Source: Acidobacteriota bacterium
GTDB lineage: Bacteria; Acidobacteriota; Terriglobia; Terriglobales; Acidobacteriaceae
Direction: 5' to 3'
DNA: 44,951 bases
NCBI GenBank assembly: GCA_013290025.1
Contig: JABCYV010000010.1
Span: forward strand, 1 to 44,951
Shown piece by piece: positions 2,746 to 44,951 of the stretch; position 1 is the stretch's first letter, and every line of letters starts with the position of its first letter. The notes under the pieces were generated by a model. It did not search any database. It had not been told where the DNA came from and saw nothing but the letters and a program-made list of their open reading frames with translations. Position numbers and translations under genes: made by a program.

Positions 2746-4854
2746 ATGCGTTTGCCTGGTTTGAAGTCCGCCGCGCGGTGGATCGTTGCCGTTATGATCG
2801 CGTGTATGTTGTCCATCATCGGCTGGACGCAAGATTCGTCTCAATCCGCGCCTGCCGTGCCGCCTCAGGCACCGGAGCCGCAGCATTTCGTCTTAAAGGA
2901 TTATGCCAAACCACGCTCGCACTTTCCCAATCCGATTGGGCCGTATCTGTCGCAGCACGTCGCACCACCCGACCTGCGCAATACGCCGCGCATCGAGCAG
3001 TTGCTGCAAAACGGCAAACTCATGCTTTCGATGGACGATGCCGTCGCTCTGACGCTGGAGAACAATCTGGATATCGCCATCGCCCGTTATAACTTAAATA
3101 TTGCGGACACAGATATCATGCGCACCAAAGCCGGAGCCAACTTTCTGGGCGTCAATAGCGGCCTGGTACAAGGCACGCCAGGGGGAGGCACCGGCGGTCT
3201 CAGCGGGACAGTAGGCTCAGGAACCGGCGGCACCAGCGCTGGAGCGGGTGGCGCGGGCACCGGTACTGGCGGCCTGGTTATCTCCACGCTAGGCAGTGGT
3301 CCGCAGATTACCAGCTACGATCCTATCCTCACCGCCACGCTGCAAATGGACCGGGCTTTCGCTCAATCGACCAGCATTTTCAACCCGCTGCCGATTGCGA
3401 ATCAGAATACAGGAACGGCAAACTTCAGTTACCTGCAAGGCTTCAAAACCGGGACCAACCTGTCGGTGGGATTCAACAATAGTCACATCACAACCGACAA
3501 TCCAACGACCACTTACAGCCCGGTTCTAACGTCCGGGTTTCAGTTCAGGCTTACCCAACACCTGCTGCAGGGCTTCGGTTTCGCGCCCAACGAACGCTAT
3601 ATCAGGATTGCCAAGAATAACCGTGAAATCACTGATGTCGCTTTCCGCCTGCAAGTCATCACCACCGTCGACCAGATCGAGAATATTTACTGGGATTTGG
3701 TGTTTGCCTACGAGAATGTGCGGGTGCAACAGGAGTCGTTGGCCTTCGCACAGAAAACTCTCTCCGATACCAGGAAGCAAGTGGACATCGGTACATTGGC
3801 GCCTATCGAAGTCGTGCGTGCTCAGAGTACCGTCGCCACTGACCAGCAGGCCTTGACCCTGGCTCAAACTAATCTTGAGTTGCAGCAGTTGCTGATGAAA
3901 AACGCGCTCAGCCGTACTCTGGTGGACCCGAGACTGGCTGATGCCGAGGTAGTCCCGACTTCCAGCATGCAGCTTCCGCCGCAGGAGGCGATTGTCCCCA
4001 CCGAAGACCTGGTCAACGACGCGCTCGGCCATCGCGCCGAGTTGGCGGAAGCGCGCATCAATTTGACCAATACCGAGATCAGCAACAAAGCAGTCCGCAA
4101 CTCACTGTTTCCGAGCCTTGACCTCTACGCTTACTACGGAGGCTCTGGAATTGGAGGAAATGTCGCTCTTCCCATCTGTGCGCCGGGGCAGAGCCCTTTT
4201 ATCAATCAGTGCTTCTCGACGGCGTCAGCGGCCCCCCCATTTCGTAACGGTGGTCCAGTCAGCTACAGTAATGCGCTAAATCAACTCGTAAATTCCAGTT
4301 CTCCTGACAAAGGCGTCGGTTTGAGCGTAAGCATCCCCATTCGCAACCGCGTCGCCCAGGCAACCCAGATTCGCTCCGAATTGGAATACCGTCAGGCGCA
4401 GATGAGGTTGCAGCAGATTGAGAACCAGATTCGCATTGAGGTGCGCAACGCGCAATTCGCGGTGCAGCAGAACCGCGCCAGCGTGGAGGCCGCTCGGGCC
4501 GCCGTTGAGCTTGGGCATCAGTCCTTGGACGCGGAACAGAAGAAGTACGCCCTGGGCGCTTCCACCACCACTCTCGTTCTGCAAAACCAAACCACCTTGG
4601 CCCAGGCTGAATCCACTCTGGTTTCAGCAATGGCCGCCTACGAGAAATCGCGGGTTGAACTGGATCGCGCCACAGGATCTTTGCTAGACCACAGCGGAAT
4701 CCAAATTGCGGACGCCGAGCGCGGAGAAGTCACGCATATGCCCAGTGTGCCTTTCGTTGCGCCCCGGCAGGAAACTCAGCCAGTGACACCGCCGCCACCG
4801 ACCGAGCCGCCCGAGGCTCCGCCACAAACAACGCCGCAAACGCCCCAACGATAA
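2746..4854 (+). CDS. TolC-family outer membrane efflux protein (copy 1)
   Basis: This 702-residue outer-membrane channel protein has an N-terminal signal peptide (hydrophobic residues about 11-28). Two TolC/OEP repeats follow, with long helical stretches such as ENIYWDLVFAYENVRVQQE and the second-repeat ELEYRQAQMRLQQIENQ. TolC homologues form trimeric periplasm-spanning exit ducts for efflux pumps or type I secretion. Two parts are unusual: a Gly/Ser/Thr-rich insertion at about residues 145-185 and a Pro-rich C-terminal tail (PPPPTEPPEAPP). At 702 residues it is much longer than typical TolC (about 450-500). The ATG at 2746 follows GGAGAT at good spacing. A close paralogue lies 264 bp downstream. 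No inner-membrane pump or adaptor gene is adjacent, so the partner is unknown. Confidence 0.88.
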   Translation: MRLPGLKSAARWIVAVMIACMLSIIGWTQDSSQSAPAVPPQAPEPQHFVLKDYAKPRSHFPNPIGPYLSQHVAPPDLRNTPRIEQLLQNGKLMLSMDDAVALTLENNLDIAIARYNLNIADTDIMRTKAGANFLGVNSGLVQGTPGGGTGGLSGTVGSGTGGTSAGAGGAGTGTGGLVISTLGSGPQITSYDPILTATLQMDRAFAQSTSIFNPLPIANQNTGTANFSYLQGFKTGTNLSVGFNNSHITTDNPTTTYSPVLTSGFQFRLTQHLLQGFGFAPNERYIRIAKNNREITDVAFRLQVITTVDQIENIYWDLVFAYENVRVQQESLAFAQKTLSDTRKQVDIGTLAPIEVVRAQSTVATDQQALTLAQTNLELQQLLMKNALSRTLVDPRLADAEVVPTSSMQLPPQEAIVPTEDLVNDALGHRAELAEARINLTNTEISNKAVRNSLFPSLDLYAYYGGSGIGGNVALPICAPGQSPFINQCFSTASAAPPFRNGGPVSYSNALNQLVNSSSPDKGVGLSVSIPIRNRVAQATQIRSELEYRQAQMRLQQIENQIRIEVRNAQFAVQQNRASVEAARAAVELGHQSLDAEQKKYALGASTTTLVLQNQTTLAQAESTLVSAMAAYEKSRVELDRATGSLLDHSGIQIADAERGEVTHMPSVPFVAPRQETQPVTPPPPTEPPEAPPQTTPQTPQR

Positions 4855-4870
4855 GCTGTGGCGCAGCGTT

Positions 4871-4915
4871 AGCCGAGAGAATCTGCTTTCGTACGACCTA
4901 GCAGATTCCTCGGCT
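4871..4915 (+). terminator. Long hairpin after the first TolC-family gene
   Basis: A stem of about 15 bp with a single bulged A (AGCCGAGAGAATCTGC pairing with GCAGATTCCTCGGCT) and a 14-base loop begins 16 bases after the stop codon. No clear T-run follows. It probably separates the two TolC-type genes as a terminator or mRNA-stabilising structure. Confidence 0.5.
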
Positions 4916-5118
4916 GTTCAACATCGCCATCCGAATAGCAAAAACCCTTACTAAGTTTGCCCCATCTCGCGCAAACACTTCTTTACAATTCCCCGAGATC
5001 AAACTCGGCCTCGCGACCGCTAGTATTGAGATGGATTCCGCCCATTTTGCGGGAGCACTAAATCCGAGATCAGAGCAGCCTCGTCATTTTTTTCAGCCTC
5101 GATCCAAGGAGATAAGTC

Positions 5119-7233
5119 ATGCCTTTCGCTCGTTCGAAATCTACCGCCCGCCTGATTGCGGGGGTTGTGTTGACGGTGATATTGTTGGCCAGCGTTTGGG
5201 CACAACAGTCGCAGTCTGTGCCATCAGCTCCACTACCGCAGGCGCCTCAACCGGGGCAACTGCAGGTGCAGACCCCCGGTCAGTTCGGTCTCAAGGATTA
5301 TTCCAAGCCGCGTTCCGCATTCCCCAACGTCAGCGCGCCTTACGCACCGCAACCCGTCGCGCCGCCGAATCTGAACAACACGCCACGCGTTGATCAGTTA
5401 TTCCACGATGGCAAGATCATGCTCTCGATCGATGACGCAGTCGCGCTGGCGCTGGAAAACAATCTCGACATCATGTTGGCGCGCTACAACCTGAACATCG
5501 CCGACACCGATATTCTGCGCGCCAAGGCTGGAGATTCAATCTTGGGAGTGAACGCCGGCGTCGTACAAAACACGCCGGGTGGGGGCACGGGTGGACTCAG
5601 CGGGACCGTCGGCTCCGGACCCGTTGGCTCTGGCCCCGGTGGTACTACCGCCGGGTCGGCAGGGGCCGGCACAGGCACAAACGGATTAGTGAGCTCTACG
5701 CTGGGCATCGGCGCCCCTATCACCAGCTTCGATCCCGTTCTCAGCAGCACCCTGCAAATTGACCACAACAACATCTTGTCCAGTAGTTCCTTCGCGGTCC
5801 CATCGACGGCCCAAAACACCGGCACAGCGGATTTCTCTTATTTGCAAGGATTCCACTGGGGCACGAATCTCGCGGTAGGATTCAATAACAGTCGCCTCAC
5901 CAGCAGCTCGCCGTTCGCTTCTCTAAGCCCGAACTTGAGCGCCAATTTCCAGGCCAGAGTCACTCAGACTCTGCTGCAAGGCTTCGGCTTCCTGCCCAAC
6001 ACGCGCTTCATCCGCATCGCCAAGAACAATCGCGAGATCTCGGATGTCGCCTTCCGCTTGCAAGTCATTACCACGGTCGATCAGATCGAAAATATTTACT
6101 GGGACCTGGTCTACGCGTATGAAAACGTGAGGGTGCAACAGGAAGCGCTGGCTTTCGCTCAGAAAACATTGGACGATGACAAAAAACAGGTGAAATTCGG
6201 AACCTTGCCACCCATCCAGGTGGTGAGCGCGGAGAGCACCGTTGCAACCGATCAGCAGGCCGTCATCCTCGCCCAAACCAACCTTGAGCTGCAACAGTTG
6301 CTCATAAAAAACGCTCTCAGCCGTAACCTGGAGGATCCTGCGCTTGGGGAAGCCGCAGTGGTCCCGACCTCTACCATGCAAGTGCCTCAGCAGGAGCCGA
6401 TCGTTCCCATACAAGACATGATCAACGACGCTTTGAGTCACCGTGCCGAATTAGCTGAGTCGCGTATTGACTTGAACAGTCGGGAGATCAATATCAAAGC
6501 TGTCCGGAATGCCATGCTGCCGACACTCGACCTGTTCGCCTATTACGGAGGCTCGGGTTTGGGTGGAACGCAAAATCCCGCGAACATTTGTCCGCCGCCG
6601 CCGCAAACCAGGTTTGGCTGTCATATTGCCGGCAGTATCTCGCCGGTCGGTTACGGGGGGACGCTCAACGATTTGGTCAATTCCGCGGCGCCAGATAAAG
6701 GTGTCGGGCTGACCCTCAACATTCCGCTGCGCAACCGGGCGGCGCAAGGCAACCAGGTACGCGCTGAATTGGAATATCATCAGGCGCAGGTACGGCGGCA
6801 GCAGATTGAAAATCAGGTGCGCATCGAGGTGCGCAACGCTCAATTTACTTTGCGGCAGAACCGGGCAGCAGTTGAAGCCGCTCGGGCCGCGGTTGAATTC
6901 GCCCGGCAGTCGCTGGATTCTGAGCAGAAAAAACTGCAGGCCGGCGTTTCCACCCCGACTTTGGTTTTGCAGAATCAGTCTGCCTTGACCACGAATGAGT
7001 CCAATCTGGTTTCCGCCATGGCCGCTTACGAGAAATCGCGAGTGGAGCTGGACCGGGCCACCGGCACGCTGTTGGACCATGCCGGAATTCAGGTTGCCGA
7101 CGCCGAGCGCGGCCAGGTGACCCACATGCCGAATGTGCCCTATGTCGCACCGCGTCAGGACCTGCAGCCCCAGGTGCCGCCAGAGCAGCCACAACAGCAG
7201 GTGCCCCCGACGCCGCAATCTGGCCAGATGTAA
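5119..7233 (+). CDS. TolC-family outer membrane efflux protein (copy 2)
   Basis: This 704-residue paralogue of the preceding gene shares the same architecture: a signal peptide ending near the ASVWAQQ segment, a conserved FGLKDYSKPRSAFPN stretch, OEP repeats, a Gly-rich insertion (about residues 153-190) and a Pro/Gln-rich tail. Long blocks are nearly identical in the two copies, for example RIAKNNREISDVAFRLQV, which points to tandem duplication. It should act as a trimeric outer-membrane export channel. The ATG at 5119 follows AAGGAGAT at good spacing, so copy 2 has its own ribosome site. The intergenic hairpin suggests it may also have its own transcript. The partner pump is not in the window. 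Confidence 0.88.
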   Translation: MPFARSKSTARLIAGVVLTVILLASVWAQQSQSVPSAPLPQAPQPGQLQVQTPGQFGLKDYSKPRSAFPNVSAPYAPQPVAPPNLNNTPRVDQLFHDGKIMLSIDDAVALALENNLDIMLARYNLNIADTDILRAKAGDSILGVNAGVVQNTPGGGTGGLSGTVGSGPVGSGPGGTTAGSAGAGTGTNGLVSSTLGIGAPITSFDPVLSSTLQIDHNNILSSSSFAVPSTAQNTGTADFSYLQGFHWGTNLAVGFNNSRLTSSSPFASLSPNLSANFQARVTQTLLQGFGFLPNTRFIRIAKNNREISDVAFRLQVITTVDQIENIYWDLVYAYENVRVQQEALAFAQKTLDDDKKQVKFGTLPPIQVVSAESTVATDQQAVILAQTNLELQQLLIKNALSRNLEDPALGEAAVVPTSTMQVPQQEPIVPIQDMINDALSHRAELAESRIDLNSREINIKAVRNAMLPTLDLFAYYGGSGLGGTQNPANICPPPPQTRFGCHIAGSISPVGYGGTLNDLVNSAAPDKGVGLTLNIPLRNRAAQGNQVRAELEYHQAQVRRQQIENQVRIEVRNAQFTLRQNRAAVEAARAAVEFARQSLDSEQKKLQAGVSTPTLVLQNQSALTTNESNLVSAMAAYEKSRVELDRATGTLLDHAGIQVADAERGQVTHMPNVPYVAPRQDLQPQVPPEQPQQQVPPTPQSGQM

Positions 7234-10054: not shown

Positions 10055-10501
10055 ATGAAAACACACAGAATGATTCTGATGTCGGCGCTTGACGATTTTG
10101 TGGGGACTACCCTACCGGCAGTCTCGGGAATTCTTGCGAGGCTGGAGTACATTTCTGGCCTACGGAAGGCTAGGACAGAGCGATACTCGCATTGGGGTCT
10201 TAGCAGGGTTTACGGGGAACGGGCGGCACAGAACGCGCTTGCGGAAGCACATCGGTTATTGTTCCTACAGGTACTAAATACCCCAATCGGGGAGCTGCAC
10301 AACGACATCATGGTGTCGAGCCAGGCGTCGCAAATGAAGCCCTATGAGTATCTGGAGCATCTGCGTAGTCATCTTCGCGTCTTGGTGCCGTCAGATCCGG
10401 GCGGCGGATCTGCGCGGCACCTCAGTTCAATGCTTGAGGCTCTTTCGAGTCTGGCTTCGCATCGGCTAGGGATTCCAATGGACGCCAGTCCCCCAATTTG
10501 A
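10055..10501 (+). CDS. Uncharacterised protein, about 148 aa, convergent with an XRE regulator
   Basis: I do not recognise this protein. It is mostly alpha-helical in appearance and polar, with no signal peptide or membrane segment. Segments such as ALDDFVGTTLPAVSGILARLEY and ERAAQNALAEAHRLLFLQVL look like a genuine compact helical domain rather than a shadow frame. The ORF opens at 10022, but the ATG at 10055 (MKTHRMIL) gives a more natural start. The MILMSALDD start at 10070 is also possible. The end overlaps the end of the convergent XRE-type gene by 80 bases, which is unusual and suggests linked evolution of the two. It may belong to the adjacent accessory cluster. Confidence 0.6.
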   Translation: MKTHRMILMSALDDFVGTTLPAVSGILARLEYISGLRKARTERYSHWGLSRVYGERAAQNALAEAHRLLFLQVLNTPIGELHNDIMVSSQASQMKPYEYLEHLRSHLRVLVPSDPGGGSARHLSSMLEALSSLASHRLGIPMDASPPI

Positions 10502-11240
10502 GTGCGATGCCAACCACCTGACCGATCACCTCCGCATCCTGAGGATGACTCAAGATCCGCACCGGTGCCGGGGATAAGGAATGCGGTTGTAGGACGATGT
10601 TTTCGCCACTCATCGTGCACCAGCAACAGGTGTAGCCTTGCCGTGTTTCCACGAAGTAAATCGGACGCTCATATTCAGATCGCCACATCCCGTAGACAAC
10701 CTCGTCCCTGGACTCATCCACCTGCAGAAAAGTACCGGGCGGAAGGATTGGATACATGGTGAAATCTTCACTGCCGATGTAGCCATAAGTGTAATGATCG
10801 CTGGCGAATTGCGCTAAGTATGTCAGTGGAACTAGTCCCCACTTTTCTATCATGCGCCCTAGGTTGCAGGTCCGGCGCGGGTCAAATGCGGGATCTAGCC
10901 GAGTCGGCATCTGTACTGCGGAAGCACTCTGTAGGATCTCGCAGCGATGCGATTTTGGCGGGAGGTTCAGGTTCACGTCCGCCATGGCGGTATTGAGGTC
11001 AACGCCATACCACGACAACACCTCCCGCAGGTCGCGACGGTAAATTACGGCGAGAGCGTAAAGCCGAAAAATGCTAGGAATGAGGCCCTTCGTCTCAATA
11101 TCGGAGAGACGACTGGGGCTGACAGCGAATTCACCATTGCCGTGCCTCTCCGCAATGCGCGCGCTTGCAGTTTCGACATCACGCATGGTGAGGCCGAGAT
11201 GCTCACGTAATAAGCGTAGATGCAGCCCGGCTTCGAGCAT
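10422..11240 (-). CDS. XRE-family helix-turn-helix regulator with S24/LexA-like C-terminal region
   Basis: The N-terminal 70 residues form an XRE/Cro-type helix-turn-helix domain (LRLLREHLGLTMRDVETAS...SPSRLSDIETKGLIPSIFRLYALAVIY). Such domains bind operator DNA as dimers. The rest (about residues 140-255) contains a strand-rich region with PILPPGTFLQVDE and PIYFVETRQGYTCCWC that resembles the S24/LexA peptidase fold. I do not see a confident Ser/Lys catalytic pair. The ORF runs up to 11294, but the ATG at 11240 (MLEAGLHLRLLREHL) has AAGG upstream and gives the normal XRE start. Divergent from the YxxP-leader gene cluster and separated from it by 540 bp, it is the natural candidate regulator of that cluster. 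That role is inference. Confidence 0.75.
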   Translation of the reverse strand: MLEAGLHLRLLREHLGLTMRDVETASARIAERHGNGEFAVSPSRLSDIETKGLIPSIFRLYALAVIYRRDLREVLSWYGVDLNTAMADVNLNLPPKSHRCEILQSASAVQMPTRLDPAFDPRRTCNLGRMIEKWGLVPLTYLAQFASDHYTYGYIGSEDFTMYPILPPGTFLQVDESRDEVVYGMWRSEYERPIYFVETRQGYTCCWCTMSGENIVLQPHSLSPAPVRILSHPQDAEVIGQVVGIALKLGDWRPLESLADAKPDSKEPQALN

Positions 11241-11779
11241 TAAAGTAACCTTGCAGGAGATGGCGCTTATATCAGAGTAATCGCGCACGGGCAAAAATCC
11301 TCTCTTTCCAACTCAATCGTCGAGCCACGAATCTACTCGTGGACATTGGTCTCGTCCGAGGCCCATACGGTTTGGGTTCCGATCTCAAAGGAGTCTAACT
11401 GAAATCGTCGAATGTTTGTTCCATTTTCAGGACAGTATCTAGAAATGCGCATCCATACCAGATCGACTAGAATAGAAAAGTGGACGACTTCCGGTCAAGC
11501 TACTACGCACCGAGCTTTCTGAGACTGTGGATTCCTTCTCGCACGCGAGTTTACATCAATCATCTAGCGGAACTGATTCTCCCACTGGCATTAAGCTCCG
11601 CAGACCCCTGGACGACGAATCTTACCGTTGGCAGGCGCGTAAGACCACGCCTGCTACTCAGAAAGACAAAAACATCGGACAGTCCAGATGTGCAGCCGCT
11701 GCTTGTTCTGTTTTCAGAACAAGAACATTGCCGTTCAGATTTCCAGGTGACGGATAGATATTGTCGGCGGGGAGGTCGT
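11241..11779. other. 539-bp divergent intergenic region, regulatory by position
   Basis: No gene is supported here. The plus-strand ORF of the following gene is open back to 11480, but that stretch (SRTRVYINHLAEL...) has no initiation signals I trust. The region must contain promoters for the XRE gene (minus) and for the 104-aa protein (plus). I cannot pick out a convincing -35/-10 pair or operator by eye. Confidence 0.4.
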
Positions 11780-12094
11780 ATGAGCGAGCACGAACCCAAG
11801 AAGAAGCCGTATACCCCACCTAGCTTTGCTCGACTTGACGCGAAGGCAGCCAAAACAGCCCTGGAGACTAAAGCAGTTCCGGGCGACGTGAATGCCAAGG
11901 CGATGTTGAAGTTAGTCAGCGCTTCGACGGCAGAGCAACCACGCCAGATTAATATTGCGATTCAGTTGCCGTCTGGGGGCCACAGCGGCGAGATGACCCT
12001 ATCCGCCCAGGCACTGCAGGTCAGTGACCTCGAAGTCCTGCGCAAAATACTAGGACTAGCCGAGGAAGTTCTGCGTCTGGAAAAGAGTGCTTAA
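11780..12094 (+). CDS. Candidate RiPP-precursor-like protein with YxxP leader motif, 104 aa
   Basis: The ATG at 11780 follows a strong GGGGAGGTCGT ribosome site. The ORF track start at 11480 lacks one. The first 30 residues are basic and Pro-rich, with KKPYTPPSFARL followed by AKAAKTAL. In lasso-peptide leaders, established motifs are Tyr at -17, Pro at -14, a hydrophobic residue at -12 and Thr at -2. Here Tyr11, Pro14, Phe16 and Thr26 have exactly that spacing. A core starting at Leu28 would place Asp36 at position 9, a possible ring acceptor. However, the remaining 77 residues are far longer than a lasso core, and Leu1 is atypical. It may instead be a scaffold recognised through the same leader motif. 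It is followed by an HPr-kinase-like gene and a nucleotidyltransferase gene. Confidence 0.6.
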   Translation: MSEHEPKKKPYTPPSFARLDAKAAKTALETKAVPGDVNAKAMLKLVSASTAEQPRQINIAIQLPSGGHSGEMTLSAQALQVSDLEVLRKILGLAEEVLRLEKSA

Positions 12095-12255
12095 GTGGGT
12101 GGTAGCGCGCCGATGACGACCTTCTTGACCGTTCTTGTGGAAAACGCTGGGGGGTTCGCGGGCCGATTCGCGCCTTCGAGCCTTCAAAGCGAACTCAGAT
12201 TGGAGACCGGATGTCTGGATCCGGCCTGCCCGTAATCAGGCGGAAGTCGTCTTGA

Positions 12256-13077
12256 ATGGAAAAACTTGACCGCCTAGGCTGGGCGGAGACAGTTTCCTTC
12301 ACGGTATTCGGCGTGCGCATAGGCGTTCGTGTGAATGCAGCGGAATTACTCGCCCCCCTTGTCTCTCATCTTCCGGTAGCGCGGAAACCTGCGAGTTTTG
12401 GCATCGTCGACCGCCTCTATTCCTTGATCGGAGGCGATCCCGCGTCACGACCTCCTGTGCGGTGTTTCAGTCTCTTGTATGGAGACACTCAACAGCTTGC
12501 TCGAACTCTGAATCTGGAAGAATTATACTGGGCACTGGAATCTGATGTCGATTTTTACGTCGGACAAGTTGCGCGCCGACGATTATTTGTTCACGCTGGC
12601 GTGGTGGGTTGGAAGGGGCGCGCCATCGTCATCCCGGGCCAAAGCCACAGCGGGAAGAGCACTCTGGTAAAAGCTTTCGTGCAGGCGGGGGCTAGTTACT
12701 ATTCTGATGAATACGCGGTACTCGATCAGCATGGCGCCGTGTATCCGTTTCCAAGGCGTATCTCTCTTAGAGACCGTACTGATGAAACCGTAACCAAGAT
12801 CACCCCAGAAGAACTGGGGGGCAAGACCGGTGCCAGACCGCTCCCGGTTGGGCTCTTGCTTTTAACCCACTACAAGCCCGGCGAGCAGTGGCGGCCAAAG
12901 GTGTTGTCTTCGGGAAGAGGGGTCCTCGGCCTGATTGCGAACGCTTTGGCCGCGCGCAAGCAACCGAAGCGGGCCCTCGCCACCTTGGAAAAGGCAGTAT
13001 GCCAAGCCCAAGTGCTAAGCGGCACCCGTGGTGAGGCAAATCAAACGGCAGAATCGATCTTGAAACGGTTTGGATAG
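12256..13077 (+). CDS. HPr-kinase/phosphorylase-like protein (RiPP-cluster type)
   Basis: This 273-residue cytoplasmic protein has the HprK fold signature: RLFVHAGVV (His113), the Walker A loop GQSHSGKST (residues 128-136) and YYSDEYAVLD with Asp151. Its N-terminal part differs from that of true HprK, which phosphorylates HPr. Shorter HprK-like proteins of this kind occur next to lasso-peptide precursor genes, where some phosphorylate the precursor. The role here, phosphorylating the upstream 104-aa protein or a cofactor, is inferred from family and context. The gene starts with the ATG at 12256, has a weak ribosome site and lies 161 bp after the precursor-like gene. No PTS operon is nearby, which argues against carbon-catabolite control. 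Confidence 0.8.
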   Translation: MEKLDRLGWAETVSFTVFGVRIGVRVNAAELLAPLVSHLPVARKPASFGIVDRLYSLIGGDPASRPPVRCFSLLYGDTQQLARTLNLEELYWALESDVDFYVGQVARRRLFVHAGVVGWKGRAIVIPGQSHSGKSTLVKAFVQAGASYYSDEYAVLDQHGAVYPFPRRISLRDRTDETVTKITPEELGGKTGARPLPVGLLLLTHYKPGEQWRPKVLSSGRGVLGLIANALAARKQPKRALATLEKAVCQAQVLSGTRGEANQTAESILKRFG

Positions 13078-13168
13078 TGGTTCGCAACACTTGGAGAGTC
13101 GTTTGAGATCGCGAGGACTAGAAATCGTGCTGGTTCCGGAGCAGTGCGGCTCGTAGATCTATCATCGC

Positions 13169-14245
13169 ATGAGACTTGCAGGACCATTGCCAAGAACTGA
13201 ATCACCAGGTCATACGGTTGCGGCTGCGCTCACTGGAGCCTGGCGCAAGTCATTCCCGAAATCAATAATCACCGCAGCGGATGCGGCCACAATGGTTCCA
13301 TTGCTTCTGAGATCGGGCGCAGGGGCATTGGGTTGGTGGCGATTTCAGAATTCTCACGGACCCTTTCTATCCACCGTACGGCCGTTGCGCGAAACTTACT
13401 TGCAGTATGCGATTCACGCGGCTGAGCATGAGAATAACGTGGCGGAAGTCTTCCGGGTGTTGCGCTCGGCCGGAATGGAGCCCATGCTGCTTAAGGGATG
13501 GGCGATCGCCCGAACATACCCAGAGATCGGCCTGCGTCCATCGGGGGATATCGACCTGTATGTGCCGCCGGAGCAGTTTGCCAAAGCTCAGGCTGTACTG
13601 AACCTTCCTGAGTATCAACGGTACTGGGTAGATTTGGACCATGATGAGATCACACGATTTAACGAGCTGAGCTTTGAGGATTTGTACGGCGCTTCGGAGG
13701 TGGTTAATCTAGACGGCACGGAAGTACGGATCCTCGGTGCTGAGGACCATCTTCGCATCCTTTGCTTGCACCTGCTTAAGCATGGCGCCTGGCGCCCACT
13801 CTGGTTGTGTGACGTTGCGGCTGCCCTAGAGGCGAGGCCCCCAACCTTTGACTGGCATCGTTGCTTGGGAAAGAGCAAGCGGCATGGCGATTGGGTGCTT
13901 TGCACTCTTGGGCTGGCGAGCTCGCTTCTTGGAGCAGTGATAGAAGACACGCCGGCGAAGCAAAGGCTCAGCAGTTTGCCCGGCTGGCTCACACGGACCG
14001 TTCTGAAGCAGTGGAGCACTCCGTACGCGCAGAACCAGTCTTTGTTCGTCGATCAAGTGAGAGGAAGTTGGTGGAAACCCAGCATTCTCGAATCAGTCCG
14101 CCAGCGTTGGCCGAATTCCATCCAGGCGACCATAGACGTCGATGGAGAGTTCGATCATATGGTACGGCTGCCATTTCAGCTCAGGAACTGCGCCGCGCGG
14201 TCAGCCAAGTTATGTCGGCAGCTACCAACGCTGATGCGCAAATAG
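13169..14245 (+). CDS. Nucleotidyltransferase family protein (NTP_transf_5 type)
   Basis: The 358-residue protein has the clear motif set of the NTP_transf_5 family: LLKGWAIARTYPEIGLRPSGDIDLYV at about residues 107-132, with the catalytic-type acidic pair Asp127 and Asp129 of the polymerase-beta fold. A downstream conserved His-rich helix ICLHLLKHGAWRPLWLCDVAAAL is also typical. Members are expected to transfer a nucleotide or use an NTP, but substrates are largely unknown. They often accompany lasso-type or PqqD-containing RiPP clusters. It follows the HprK-like gene by 91 bp, consistent with one operon. An ATG at 13169 opens the frame. A later start, for example near MVPLLLRSG (residue 42), cannot be excluded. 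Confidence 0.82.
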   Translation: MRLAGPLPRTESPGHTVAAALTGAWRKSFPKSIITAADAATMVPLLLRSGAGALGWWRFQNSHGPFLSTVRPLRETYLQYAIHAAEHENNVAEVFRVLRSAGMEPMLLKGWAIARTYPEIGLRPSGDIDLYVPPEQFAKAQAVLNLPEYQRYWVDLDHDEITRFNELSFEDLYGASEVVNLDGTEVRILGAEDHLRILCLHLLKHGAWRPLWLCDVAAALEARPPTFDWHRCLGKSKRHGDWVLCTLGLASSLLGAVIEDTPAKQRLSSLPGWLTRTVLKQWSTPYAQNQSLFVDQVRGSWWKPSILESVRQRWPNSIQATIDVDGEFDHMVRLPFQLRNCAARSAKLCRQLPTLMRK

Positions 14246-21251: not shown

Positions 21252-22034
21252 CAAGGGCGCATGAGAGTCCGCAGGCAGCAGGTTCGCCGCAGGCGCGTAA
21301 AGACCGCGAAGCCCTAGTTACAGGCTTTGGTGAACGTGAGTTGAATCCTCGGTCCAGGATCACCATGAAGTTAGGTGGGGTGCGGCGACGAGCAAAGTGC
21401 CTCCACCGCTCCCCAGAACGGCTTCGCACACGACCCAGGCCGGCCTACCCCACTTAAAGATTACGTCTGTATGCGCTTGGTATCACGGCACGTTAGTCAC
21501 TAGACTTTCGGGTTTGGGGTGAGTTTTTGGGCGGAGTACAGACTTCTTGGGCAAGGACTAGTTGTTAGGAAAAACCGTATCGAACAACCATTCGGGAATG
21601 TGCGAGATTGAGAGCACTCTGGCCCTCTTTGCTGCATGCACCGGCCGCAGGAAGATCGCATCCGGGAACTCTGTGCACAAAGCCAGATAACGACAGGGAT
21701 CGGCACTAGTTCGGCAAGCCCCAGAGGCGTTCTGTTCGCTTTTCGGAACAAACAAGGAATTCTGCTTTGGAACTCGGGCGAATGGGTTAGATTCGTGTCG
21801 AAAGTATCCGACAGCAGTCGCACAACCGGCATCTGAACACCCATAGAGGTGACAGATGCCGTCATCTCCCGCCGCAAAATCAAAACAGTCCGCTCTTAGT
21901 GGCGACGCCGTCAGTGCTGGGGCTCGTCCACACATACTGGGCCGCTCGGTGAAAATGGTCCAGCCCAATTTCCACATAATCTCTGCACTTCAAAAATATG
22001 CTAGAAGATGAAAAAAGAACACGGATCCACCCAT
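21252..22034. other. 783-bp region with only degenerate frames
   Basis: Several overlapping frames exist on both strands (21500-21977) but none has a family-like sequence or a good start. A short plus-strand stretch near 21640 (EDRIRELCAQ) looks like the beginning of a helical protein that then loses sense, so the region may be a decayed gene. Confidence 0.35.
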
Positions 22035-42471: not shown

Positions 42472-44334
42472 TCATGGAAGCGCATGGTTGGTCAACAAAT
42501 AGTTACCGGCGTTCTCGGCTACAACCTGCAGGTCGGACCGCCCGACAAGTTGCTCGAGATGCGGCATTTCCGTGCCATAAGCAAGAAGGTAGCATCGTTC
42601 CGACCCCCTCCACAGCGACTCGAACTTGCCGTCATCGATGAACACGTTGGGAGCGCCGGGTGCGTAAGAGCCATATTCCAGATTGTTGTTCCGGCCGTTC
42701 AGTAGCAGAGCCGTTCGGCCCGTATAGAAGAACACCGACGAGAAGGCGTAGAAAGAATTGGCTTCAATCAACTGTCCTGGCGGACTCTGCTGCAGGCGCT
42801 CTGCCAGTGGGTAGGAGCCTAGATATGAGTCGAAGCGGATGAGGGCAATCCTAGCAGCCTGGAAGAAGACGACCATGCTGGCGGCGACTACGAGAACGGT
42901 TCTCCGCACGTCCGTCCGCGCCACCGCCAAGCCTAAAGCTCCCGCTCCGAAGCCGAGGGCCGCAAACCCTAGCGGCAGCTTCAGGTAGGCGAAGGCGTTG
43001 AGGGTTAGATCCCGGATGTGGCCCAGCGACAGGGTGTAAAGATCGGGATGTTGGGTTAGGGCGCTGGCGATGCCCGCGCCGGTAGGCAACCGCCAGACGA
43101 GCAGGAGCACGAGTAAAAGCGCGGCAGACAGTAGGGTGAAGACAGTCAGCAGAATTCGGGTACCTAGGGGCACCCAGCGGCTGCGGGAGCTGAGGGCCGA
43201 CCCGATCAACAAAGCCAGCGCTGGGTAGACCGGCAGCGAGTAGTACTCCTGCGTGGTCGAGAATGTGAAGAACAACATGACTACACCGATCCAGCAAAAG
43301 GCCATCAACCGCACACGTCCGCCGCGCGTACTCGGCTGGTAGGAAAGGGTGGGAGAGGCGAGAAGGTAGACCGACCAGGGGAATATCCAAACCAGGTTCA
43401 GTAGCCAAAACCATAGTCTGGGCACGGTGTTGTAGTCGCGCGGGTATCGCAAGTTCAGAAAACGCAAAAGATGTTCGTTGATGAAGTAGAACCAGAAGAA
43501 TCCGTGGTATTCGCCCGGCCCGCTATGCATGGAGAACGCAAAGTAAGGTGGGTTACGTAGAGTGGCGAGCGCATGCCAGGGGGCAGCGATCGCCAACGCG
43601 ACGGCGACAACTATCGCCACATGTAATCGACGCCATGCCACAGGAGAGAACAGTTGTCGAGTGATCGCCATGTAGACTAGGCCGGCCATCACAGGAAAGA
43701 CCACGGCAATGAGGCCCTTTAGCAACAGGCCGAGTCCTAAGCACAGCCCCAGGATGAGGGACCAACCGAGGGGATGCTCGCCTTCTGGTTCAAGCAGCCG
43801 CAACCAGGCCCAAACGGCGCCGGTGATGGCCAGAGTCAGCGTGGCATCTGGGATCAGGATCCGTGTGAACAAAAACAATCCAACCGACGTAGCGAGCGCG
43901 ACGCTAGCGTAGACTCCCGCCTCCTCATCAAAAGCCCAGCGTGCGAAGCGGTAGGTGACCCAACACAAAAGTACCACCGCGATAGCAAGCGGCAAACGCG
44001 CAGCCCAGTCGTGGACCCCCAAGATGCGGTACGATCCTGCCATCATCCAGTAGATCAGCGGCGCTTTTTCGAGATAGGCGACGCCATCGAGTCGGGCCGT
44101 CACCCAGTCTCCCGACGCTAGCATGTTCCGGGCAATCTGCGCCTGGACCGCATCAACATCGTCCATTAGACGAGGTGGACTGGCGATATTTACGACGAAG
44201 ACGAGACAAGCTGCTGCGACAACGATCCAACCGCCCCAACCGCTTCGACGAGTGGGCTCGGCATTGTGGCTTCCGCCGGTATTAGCTCGATGTTCCACCG
44301 TCTCATCCAGATCAACAGAACCATCAAACCCCAT
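42472..44334 (-). CDS. ArnT-like family 39 glycosyltransferase
   Basis: The roughly 620-residue multi-pass membrane protein has a first helix (WIVVAAACLVFVVNI), the acidic periplasmic loop PPRLMDDVDAVQAQIARNML, and GDWVTARLDGVAYLEKAPLIYWMMA, the DE/D-x-Y/F and EKPPL-like motif of PMT/ArnT GT39 enzymes that use polyprenyl-phosphate sugars. About ten further helices and a C-terminal periplasmic domain follow. The acceptor could be lipid A, a glycan or protein. The ATG at 44334 overlaps the end of the asparagine synthase by 145 bases. A GTG at 44298 is another possible start. Overlap suggests translational coupling. Confidence 0.88.
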   Translation of the reverse strand: MGFDGSVDLDETVEHRANTGGSHNAEPTRRSGWGGWIVVAAACLVFVVNIASPPRLMDDVDAVQAQIARNMLASGDWVTARLDGVAYLEKAPLIYWMMAGSYRILGVHDWAARLPLAIAVVLLCWVTYRFARWAFDEEAGVYASVALATSVGLFLFTRILIPDATLTLAITGAVWAWLRLLEPEGEHPLGWSLILGLCLGLGLLLKGLIAVVFPVMAGLVYMAITRQLFSPVAWRRLHVAIVVAVALAIAAPWHALATLRNPPYFAFSMHSGPGEYHGFFWFYFINEHLLRFLNLRYPRDYNTVPRLWFWLLNLVWIFPWSVYLLASPTLSYQPSTRGGRVRLMAFCWIGVVMLFFTFSTTQEYYSLPVYPALALLIGSALSSRSRWVPLGTRILLTVFTLLSAALLLVLLLVWRLPTGAGIASALTQHPDLYTLSLGHIRDLTLNAFAYLKLPLGFAALGFGAGALGLAVARTDVRRTVLVVAASMVVFFQAARIALIRFDSYLGSYPLAERLQQSPPGQLIEANSFYAFSSVFFYTGRTALLLNGRNNNLEYGSYAPGAPNVFIDDGKFESLWRGSERCYLLAYGTEMPHLEQLVGRSDLQVVAENAGNYLLTNHALP

Positions 44335-44951
44335 AAGTGATACCCCAAGTTCGCTCTCCTCGCCAGGTGTTCTCGTATTAGGTGCTCGACGGCAGGCCAG
44401 TGGAATAGCTTACTAGCCGACACCGCCTCCTGGGATAGCGTATCCAGGAGCAGGGGTCGAAGAACTCCCCGAAACCATTCGTGGATAGGGATGTCGAAAC
44501 CAATTTTGGGCCGACGCAGCACCTCGGGTGGCAATTTGTGCTTCATCATGCGTCGCAAAACGTATTTAGACTTCGACCCCCGCAGCATAAAGTTCGCTGG
44601 CAGGCGGTTGGCAAAATCGACGATACGCGGATCGAGGAAGGGGGGCCGGACCTCCAGCGAATGAGCCATGCTCATTCGGTCCACTTTATAAAGGATGTCA
44701 TCAGGCAAGTAGTACCGTTGGTCGAAGTCAAGATAACGCTGCAATCCGGTATTGGTCGCCCTTCCAGCGACTACTGCGGCCAGTGGAGTGGGATCCGCGT
44801 AGAGAAATAGCTCCCGCTTTTCAACTTCGGAAAAGGTTCCGTTCCAAAACACGTGTGCCAGTTCCGGCGAAAGCAGCGAGCCTTGCAGAAATCGCTTGAG
44901 CTTGTACTCGGAACTGATTTTTTCGTCTGACACGGGCAGATGCCTGGCACA
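44190..44951 (-). CDS. asnB: Asparagine synthase C-terminal domain, cut by the window edge
   Basis: This is the last ~250 residues of a glutamine-hydrolysing asparagine synthase-like protein, whose N-terminal glutaminase and pyrophosphatase loop lie beyond the window. Visible motifs are DQRYYLPDDILYKVDRMSMAHSLEVRPPFLDPRIVDFANRLP, typical of the synthase domain, then SKYVLRRMMKHKLPPEVLRRPKIGFDIPI. Asparagine synthases make Asn from Asp and ATP, but members also serve in surface-polysaccharide loci or as lasso cyclases. It is the most upstream visible gene of a minus-strand operon with the GT39 enzyme and permease. Track start 44933 is not a real start. Confidence 0.88.
   Translation of the reverse strand, partial: CARHLPVSDEKISSEYKLKRFLQGSLLSPELAHVFWNGTFSEVEKRELFLYADPTPLAAVVAGRATNTGLQRYLDFDQRYYLPDDILYKVDRMSMAHSLEVRPPFLDPRIVDFANRLPANFMLRGSKSKYVLRRMMKHKLPPEVLRRPKIGFDIPIHEWFRGVLRPLLLDTLSQEAVSASKLFHWPAVEHLIREHLARRANLGYHLWGLMVLLIWMRRWNIELIPAEATMPSPLVEAVGAVGSLSQQLVSSSS

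Follow-up and report, generated by a model that had tools for sequence, protein, structure and literature searches.

Does a gene for a small protein with a YxxP motif, followed by genes for an HprK-like kinase and an NTP_transf_5 nucleotidyltransferase, mark a lasso-type peptide cluster? This question is raised by a locus of an Acidobacteriota bacterium for which an initial annotation had suggested a possible RiPP-type cluster, either a reduced one using enzymes encoded elsewhere or a new modification system with the same leader recognition. The window, i.e., the whole stretch of DNA analyzed (44,951 nucleotides), is the complete contig C10 of the genome G000 (82% complete, 4.9 Mb). The locus contains the following features:

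10055–10501 (+), P0005, 148 aa, protein without a family assignment, convergent with the regulator P0004
10422–11294 (−), P0004, XRE-type (HTH) regulator, divergent from P0001
11417–11434 (+), weak second palindrome copy (three mismatches), in the P0004-proximal part of the divergent promoter region
11704–11721 (+), perfect palindrome TGTTCTGTTTTCAGAACA, 58 bp 5′ of the P0001 ATG
11780–12094 (+), P0001, 104 aa, YxxP protein
12256–13077 (+), P0002, HprK-like kinase (TIGR04352 profile)
13078–13168 (no strand), gap between the kinase and NTP_transf_5 genes, the slot of the PqqD-signal-tail gene in G058 (L062) and G015 (L126)
13169–14245 (+), P0003, NTP_transf_5 nucleotidyltransferase (PF14907)

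P0001, P0002, and P0003 are real genes, all in the same direction, and a GGGGAGG ribosome site is located immediately 5′ of the P0001 ATG. The 104-aa reading frame with Tyr11, Pro14, Phe16, and Thr26 was confirmed, as was the flanking protein that had been described as unknown. Elsewhere in the window, a tandem pair of TolC-type outer membrane efflux protein genes is found (2746–7233).

The families to which the two enzymes had been assigned proved to be right. P0003 exceeded the PF14907 cutoff of 31 with 104 bits, and P0002 matched TIGR04352 with an E-value of 2.8e-18 and 66 bits, a score that does not reach the cutoff of 200. His113, Lys134, Asp151, and Asp157 of P0002 are kept in 26, 26, 26, and 24 of 26 sequences, respectively, and correspond to the His-Lys-Asp-Asp residues reported in kinases that tailor lasso peptides (PMC9266682). 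In P0003 the G...D-x-D motif is intact, with Lys109-Gly110, Arg123, Asp127, and Asp129 invariant in 22 of 22 sequences. Judged by these residues, both enzymes look active.

Genes for HprK-like kinases and nucleotidyltransferases are frequent lasso accessories (PMC7533575, PMC9266682), which speaks for a reduced lasso-peptide cluster with its B and C enzymes encoded elsewhere. However, the lasso leader spacing ascribed to P0001 was not borne out: Thr26, the residue at position −2, is replaced by Ala in the three closest relatives (G010, G015a, and G015b), so that this Thr is not a feature of the family, and the implied core would begin with Leu28 instead of Gly. The B2 protease (Transglut_core3, PF13471) had no match in the organism's own genome, at 82% completeness. 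In line with the initial annotation, which had found no RRE or cyclase gene near P0001, the window contains neither a PqqD gene nor a lasso cyclase gene. Its only Asn_synthase reading frame (44190–44933, −), located 30 kb from P0001, truncated by the contig end and adjoining a PMT_2-type glycosyltransferase gene, scored 141.6 bits against the XrtA/PEP-CTERM amidotransferase model and 41.9 bits against the lasso cyclase model (NCBIfam). With the Thr not conserved, no B2 match in the 82% of the genome available, and no cyclase nearby, the lasso cluster was rejected as an extremely unlikely explanation.

Kinase matches were found in 28 genomes among 399 class members, and 25 kinase-relative loci, weak ones included, were read with profiles for the kinase, PqqD, and NTP_transf_5. 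A PqqD gene is located within 4.5 kb of the kinase gene at 21 of the 25 loci, and both PqqD and NTP_transf_5 genes are present at 17. Nineteen of the 21 PqqD genes encode a fusion consisting of a PqqD domain, an RR motif, a hydrophobic stretch, an AxA motif, and an exported tail of mostly 17–65 residues; this count includes L075, which has a longer tail and was assigned by eye, while L088 and L090 are without the signal-tail part. All six fusions tested passed the Pfam cutoff for PqqD, and one passed that of TIGR01409 for a Tat signal. The tails range from six-cysteine sequences with inhibitor-cystine-knot spacing (L063–L065, G015, and the copy in the organism's own genome described below; the clade of the window shows this cystine-knot-like type) to Pro/Lys-rich ones, and no conserved residue marks a modification site in them. 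For this gene set, the name "Terriglobia PqqD-signal-peptide cassette" was defined in this analysis. In G058, kinase, fusion, and NTP_transf_5 genes follow each other without gaps. A plasmid of Gemmatirosa kalamazoonensis (L109 7706–11765) carries genes for a kinase, a PqqD-signal-Cys-rich tail protein, a MauE-like membrane protein, and NTP_transf_5; as this set stands outside the Acidobacteriota, the design of the cassette crosses phyla.

In the window, the kinase and NTP_transf_5 genes are adjacent and of the matching clade for this cassette. The kinase shares 44% identity with that of G058 and 48–65% with the pieces from G015, and the nucleotidyltransferase shares 59% with that of G015. Only 91 bp separate the two genes, and searches of the window revealed no PqqD remnant and, by pattern, no Tat signal elsewhere. 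The genome itself contains PqqD genes on the contigs C160, C66, and C70, and one of them encodes a PqqD-signal-tail fusion, which is unlinked to the window (C160; L085 6843–7502) and ends in a tail of about 30 residues with six cysteines. Its score against TIGR04353 was 23.3 bits, below the cutoff of 35. The fusion is closest to that of the G015 cassette (49% for the PqqD piece and 58% for the signal-tail piece, which lie in different frames in G015 and were each compared to C160 apart), and it is also near the fusions of those loci whose kinases are closest to the window kinase. On contig C53 of G015 the order is kinase, PqqD, signal-tail, NTP_transf_5, with frameshifts in the kinase and the fusion. 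Given these frameshifts and a broken PqqD reading frame directly 5′ of the C160 fusion, decay or misassembly of part of the copies is conceivable. Overall, the identity of the cassette and the fusion encoded in trans are well supported. Of the earlier proposal, the idea of a reduced cluster that uses a part encoded elsewhere thus stood, given the PqqD/RRE-domain gene on C160 with its identical palindrome (see below), but the lasso identity did not.

Other gene sets of related composition were also observed. Contig C66 of the same genome (L084 12435–20000) encodes PqqD-like, radical SAM, and HprK-like proteins and the start of an S24/S26-like peptidase. A similar PqqD-like/radical SAM/HprK-like cassette is found on C53 of G015 (L126 15702–18514), where a 74-aa peptide with YESPKLRTISLRPEEAVLGNCK is a candidate for a YxxP precursor on which the radical SAM enzyme would act.

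The window operon and the C160 locus share TGTTCTGTTTTCAGAACA, an 18-base palindrome with three exact copies in the 4.9 Mb genome: one 5′ of P0001, one 5′ of the C160 PqqD genes, and one on C62. At the P0001 and C160 loci it is positioned 46–58 bp 5′ of the first start codon. A looser form of the pattern yielded 35 matches against 0 control matches in 61 genomes; the invariant TTTT of this set follows partly from the pattern used. A further TGTTCGCTTTTCGGAACA site is present in the window at 21733–21750, with no obvious gene start shortly downstream. In G015, the palindrome is located 86 bp 5′ of a solitary YxxP gene on C54. The palindrome is probably an operator, and its predicted binder is likely P0004 or a paralogue on C35 that is 84% identical to it. 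P0004 was found where the initial annotation had placed a divergent XRE/S24-like regulator; its HTH matches in Pfam are weak and sub-cutoff, and an S24 domain was not reported by Pfam, the C-terminal part possibly being a degenerate S24-like one. Its structure model (mean pLDDT 33) was not used. On C35 (L131 5323–6556), the P0004-like gene is convergent with a P0005-like gene (61% identity), and this recurrence marks the pair as a regulator module rather than a part of the enzyme cassette.

It might be argued that the palindrome is a short repeated element, such as a REP-like hairpin, and as such uninformative on co-regulation. G008 leaves room for this reading, as it contains 15 copies of TGTTCNNTTTTNNGAACA in 2.4 Mb (L136–L156), two of which adjoin genes resembling REP-associated transposases. 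In the genome studied here, however, palindromes are rare and mostly located 46–260 bp 5′ of start codons, and the exact copies stand in unrelated surroundings (22–33% identity of the flanks). Moreover, G001, of the same genus, keeps the palindrome 5′ of the same PilZ-type and GAF genes as G000 despite diverged flanks, doubled in one case, and the sole copy in G059 precedes the start of a P0004 homologue (41% identity) by 90 bp. A repeated element therefore appears improbable, and the case for co-regulation of the window operon and the C160 locus is good, if inferential. Still, since the palindrome is also found 5′ of PilZ, GAF, and methyltransferase genes, co-regulation is no proof of a joint function.

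P0001 itself had no match in Pfam or NCBIfam. Its residues 8–45 belong to a family of small proteins with a conserved Y-x-x-P...D..A...L pattern, and a family profile built without P0001 found it with an E-value of 3.4e-6 among 2837 sequences, 2000 of them shuffles of P0001, which confirms that the YxxP motif is real. Relatives of residues 5–50 are present in G010 and G015, and a wider set of small proteins from genomes of the same family has K-x-x-Y-x-x-P and D..A...L in common. For residues 55–104, no homologue was found. Searches for P0001 homologues gave none in viral contigs, none in plasmids apart from a single chance match (E-value 9), and nothing in GTDB contigs beyond two Terriglobales matches already known. 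The structure model of P0001 (mean pLDDT 54), with a disordered N-terminal part and a C-terminus of beta strands and a helix, was too poor for a fold search, and sequence searches of solved structures with P0001 to P0004 returned nothing useful.

P0001 could be the precursor of a RiPP-type product. An unlinked PqqD domain would then bind the YxxP leader, and the neighboring enzymes would phosphorylate and further modify the C-terminal part. RREs are known to recognize Y/W/L-x-x-P motifs (PMC12710340), the Tyr, the Pro, and the hydrophobic residue after it are maintained throughout the family, P0001 heads the operon, a YxxP gene adjoins the cassette in a second genus as well, and the organism has PqqD domains to offer. 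Of the leader residues whose conservation was to be checked, the Tyr and the Pro hold up in this way and the Thr does not. Against a precursor role, however, conservation extends through D..A...L, while the C-termini of the family are unrelated and share no core, Ser, Thr, or Cys. Most relatives also occur in genomes free of the kinase: of nine further YxxP-family genomes and one genome of the same genus, only G015 contains it, no kinase match being present in G010, G412, G335, G867, G910, G415, G949, and G886 or in the same-genus genome G001. Likewise, all 25 kinase-relative loci scanned are without a YxxP gene, and the short YxxP reading frames near 17 kinase loci were chance-like ones only. 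As the PqqD-signal-tail fusion of the relatives' cassette is the better substrate candidate, a precursor role of P0001 is rather unlikely.

The same distribution can be read as a sign that P0001 is a small signaling-type protein of a palindrome regulon, with PilZ, GAF, and response-regulator genes, whose place next to the kinase gene is accidental. YxxP genes, of which there are about one or two per genome, are mostly solitary and often found near PilZ, response-regulator, or membrane-bound GGDEF-type genes, and the palindrome precedes PilZ and GAF genes as well. Yet in G015 a YxxP gene (E-value 1.7e-5 with a profile built without G015) is convergent with the cassette on C53 at a distance of 290 bp. 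The YxxP gene hence adjoins the cassette in two genera, which at such low copy numbers would be a double coincidence. The proposed co-occurrence with the kinase thus fails for most homologues but holds in G015, which implies that the link between YxxP gene and cassette is not pure accident; an accidental adjacency is possible, though doubtful. We read P0001 as an adaptor or co-regulated partner of the cassette, a role that is conjecture.

Taken together, the explanation favored here, to which we give about an even chance as a whole, is that of a split cassette for the modification of an exported peptide, with an unlinked fusion on C160 under shared palindrome control. The families, the relatives' conserved cassette, the empty slot, the unlinked fusion, and the common palindrome are established at the level of sequence. 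The operon of P0001, HprK-like kinase, and NTP_transf_5 would form one half, and the C160 protein, in which a twin-arginine-like signal with a terminal AxA connects the RRE-type PqqD domain to the six-cysteine tail, would form the other, both probably controlled together by P0004 via TGTTCTGTTTTCAGAACA. The PqqD domain may present the fused tail to the kinase, which would phosphorylate it, and NTP_transf_5 would attach a hexose or a nucleotidyl moiety to this phosphate, following the reactions reported for PsmK and PsmN of pseudomycoidin (PMC9266682); this modification chemistry is conjecture by analogy. The product would then be exported by Tat and the tail freed by signal peptidase. In the weakest step of the scheme, P0001 is most likely an accessory, with its YxxP segment docking on the PqqD domain. 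Against the explanation as a whole weigh the tails' lack of a conserved modification site, the sub-cutoff scores of the kinase (TIGR04352) and of the C160 PqqD (TIGR04353), and the damaged reading frames on C160 and in G015. The split cassette might even represent a new class of modification in which an RRE (PqqD) domain and the peptide whose modification it assists are parts of a single polypeptide. This protein would combine the PqqD domain with a Tat signal and a knottin-like core, and a dedicated kinase and NTP_transf_5 would phosphorylate and then glycosylate or nucleotidylate it before its export in folded form. The YxxP motif would reside on P0001 as a separate adaptor, so that the customary roles of leader and RRE would be reversed. 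We consider such a new class conceivable but unlikely.

Cassettes of HprK-like kinase, PqqD, and NTP_transf_5 are widespread and already named in databases, while our literature searches found no papers on HprK-related or HPr-rel-A systems, nothing relevant among the matches on PqqD in combination with Tat or cystine knots, and no paper on such cassettes outside lasso clusters. The window and C160 together hint at a little-studied peptide-modification system. The fusion, in which PqqD is followed by a Tat-type signal and a short exported tail, provides a concrete, testable substrate candidate, and the common palindrome ties this unlinked gene to the cassette enzymes. The locus is also a warning that YxxP, kinase, and nucleotidyltransferase together are insufficient for calling a lasso-type cluster.

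With lasso tailoring, as known for paeninodin (PadeK) and pseudomycoidin (PsmK/PsmN; PMC9266682), the window has the two enzyme families and the His-Lys-Asp-Asp set of the kinase in common, but it is without lasso precursor, B2 protease, and cyclase, and the candidate substrates share no C-terminal Ser. The combination of a PqqD/RRE domain and a YxxP-type motif is shared with RRE/PqqD-dependent RiPP systems (RRE-Finder, PMC7470986; PMC12710340), from which the present case differs in that the RRE-type domain is fused to an exported peptide. Neither paper uses the terms kinase or HprK, and their passages on fusions concern enzymes and not exported peptides. As in knottins, the tails of L063–L065, L085, and G015 have the spacing C-x6-C-x4/5-CC-x3/4-C-x4/6-C, with sub-cutoff Pfam ICK matches; unlike knottins, they are bacterial and stand behind a PqqD domain and a Tat-like signal, and their knottin fold and disulfides are putative. 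A counterpart in gene content is HPr-rel-A (TIGR04352, TIGR04353), which on a plasmid of Sphingomonas parapaucimobilis (NZ_CP155749.1) combines HprK-like kinase, PqqD, and nucleotidyltransferase in one run, next to a gene whose small product bears a twin-arginine-like signal. The set in the window is a variant of this type of gene set and no member by NCBIfam cutoffs, as the scores of the Terriglobia proteins are far below them. The adjacency of kinase, PqqD, and nucleotidyltransferase genes seen in HPr-rel-A recurs at the 17 relative loci mentioned above, whereas in the window PqqD is unlinked and the YxxP protein is added. Finally, the Tat-type protein and PqqD are encoded by separate genes in Sphingomonas, whereas in Terriglobia they form one fused protein.
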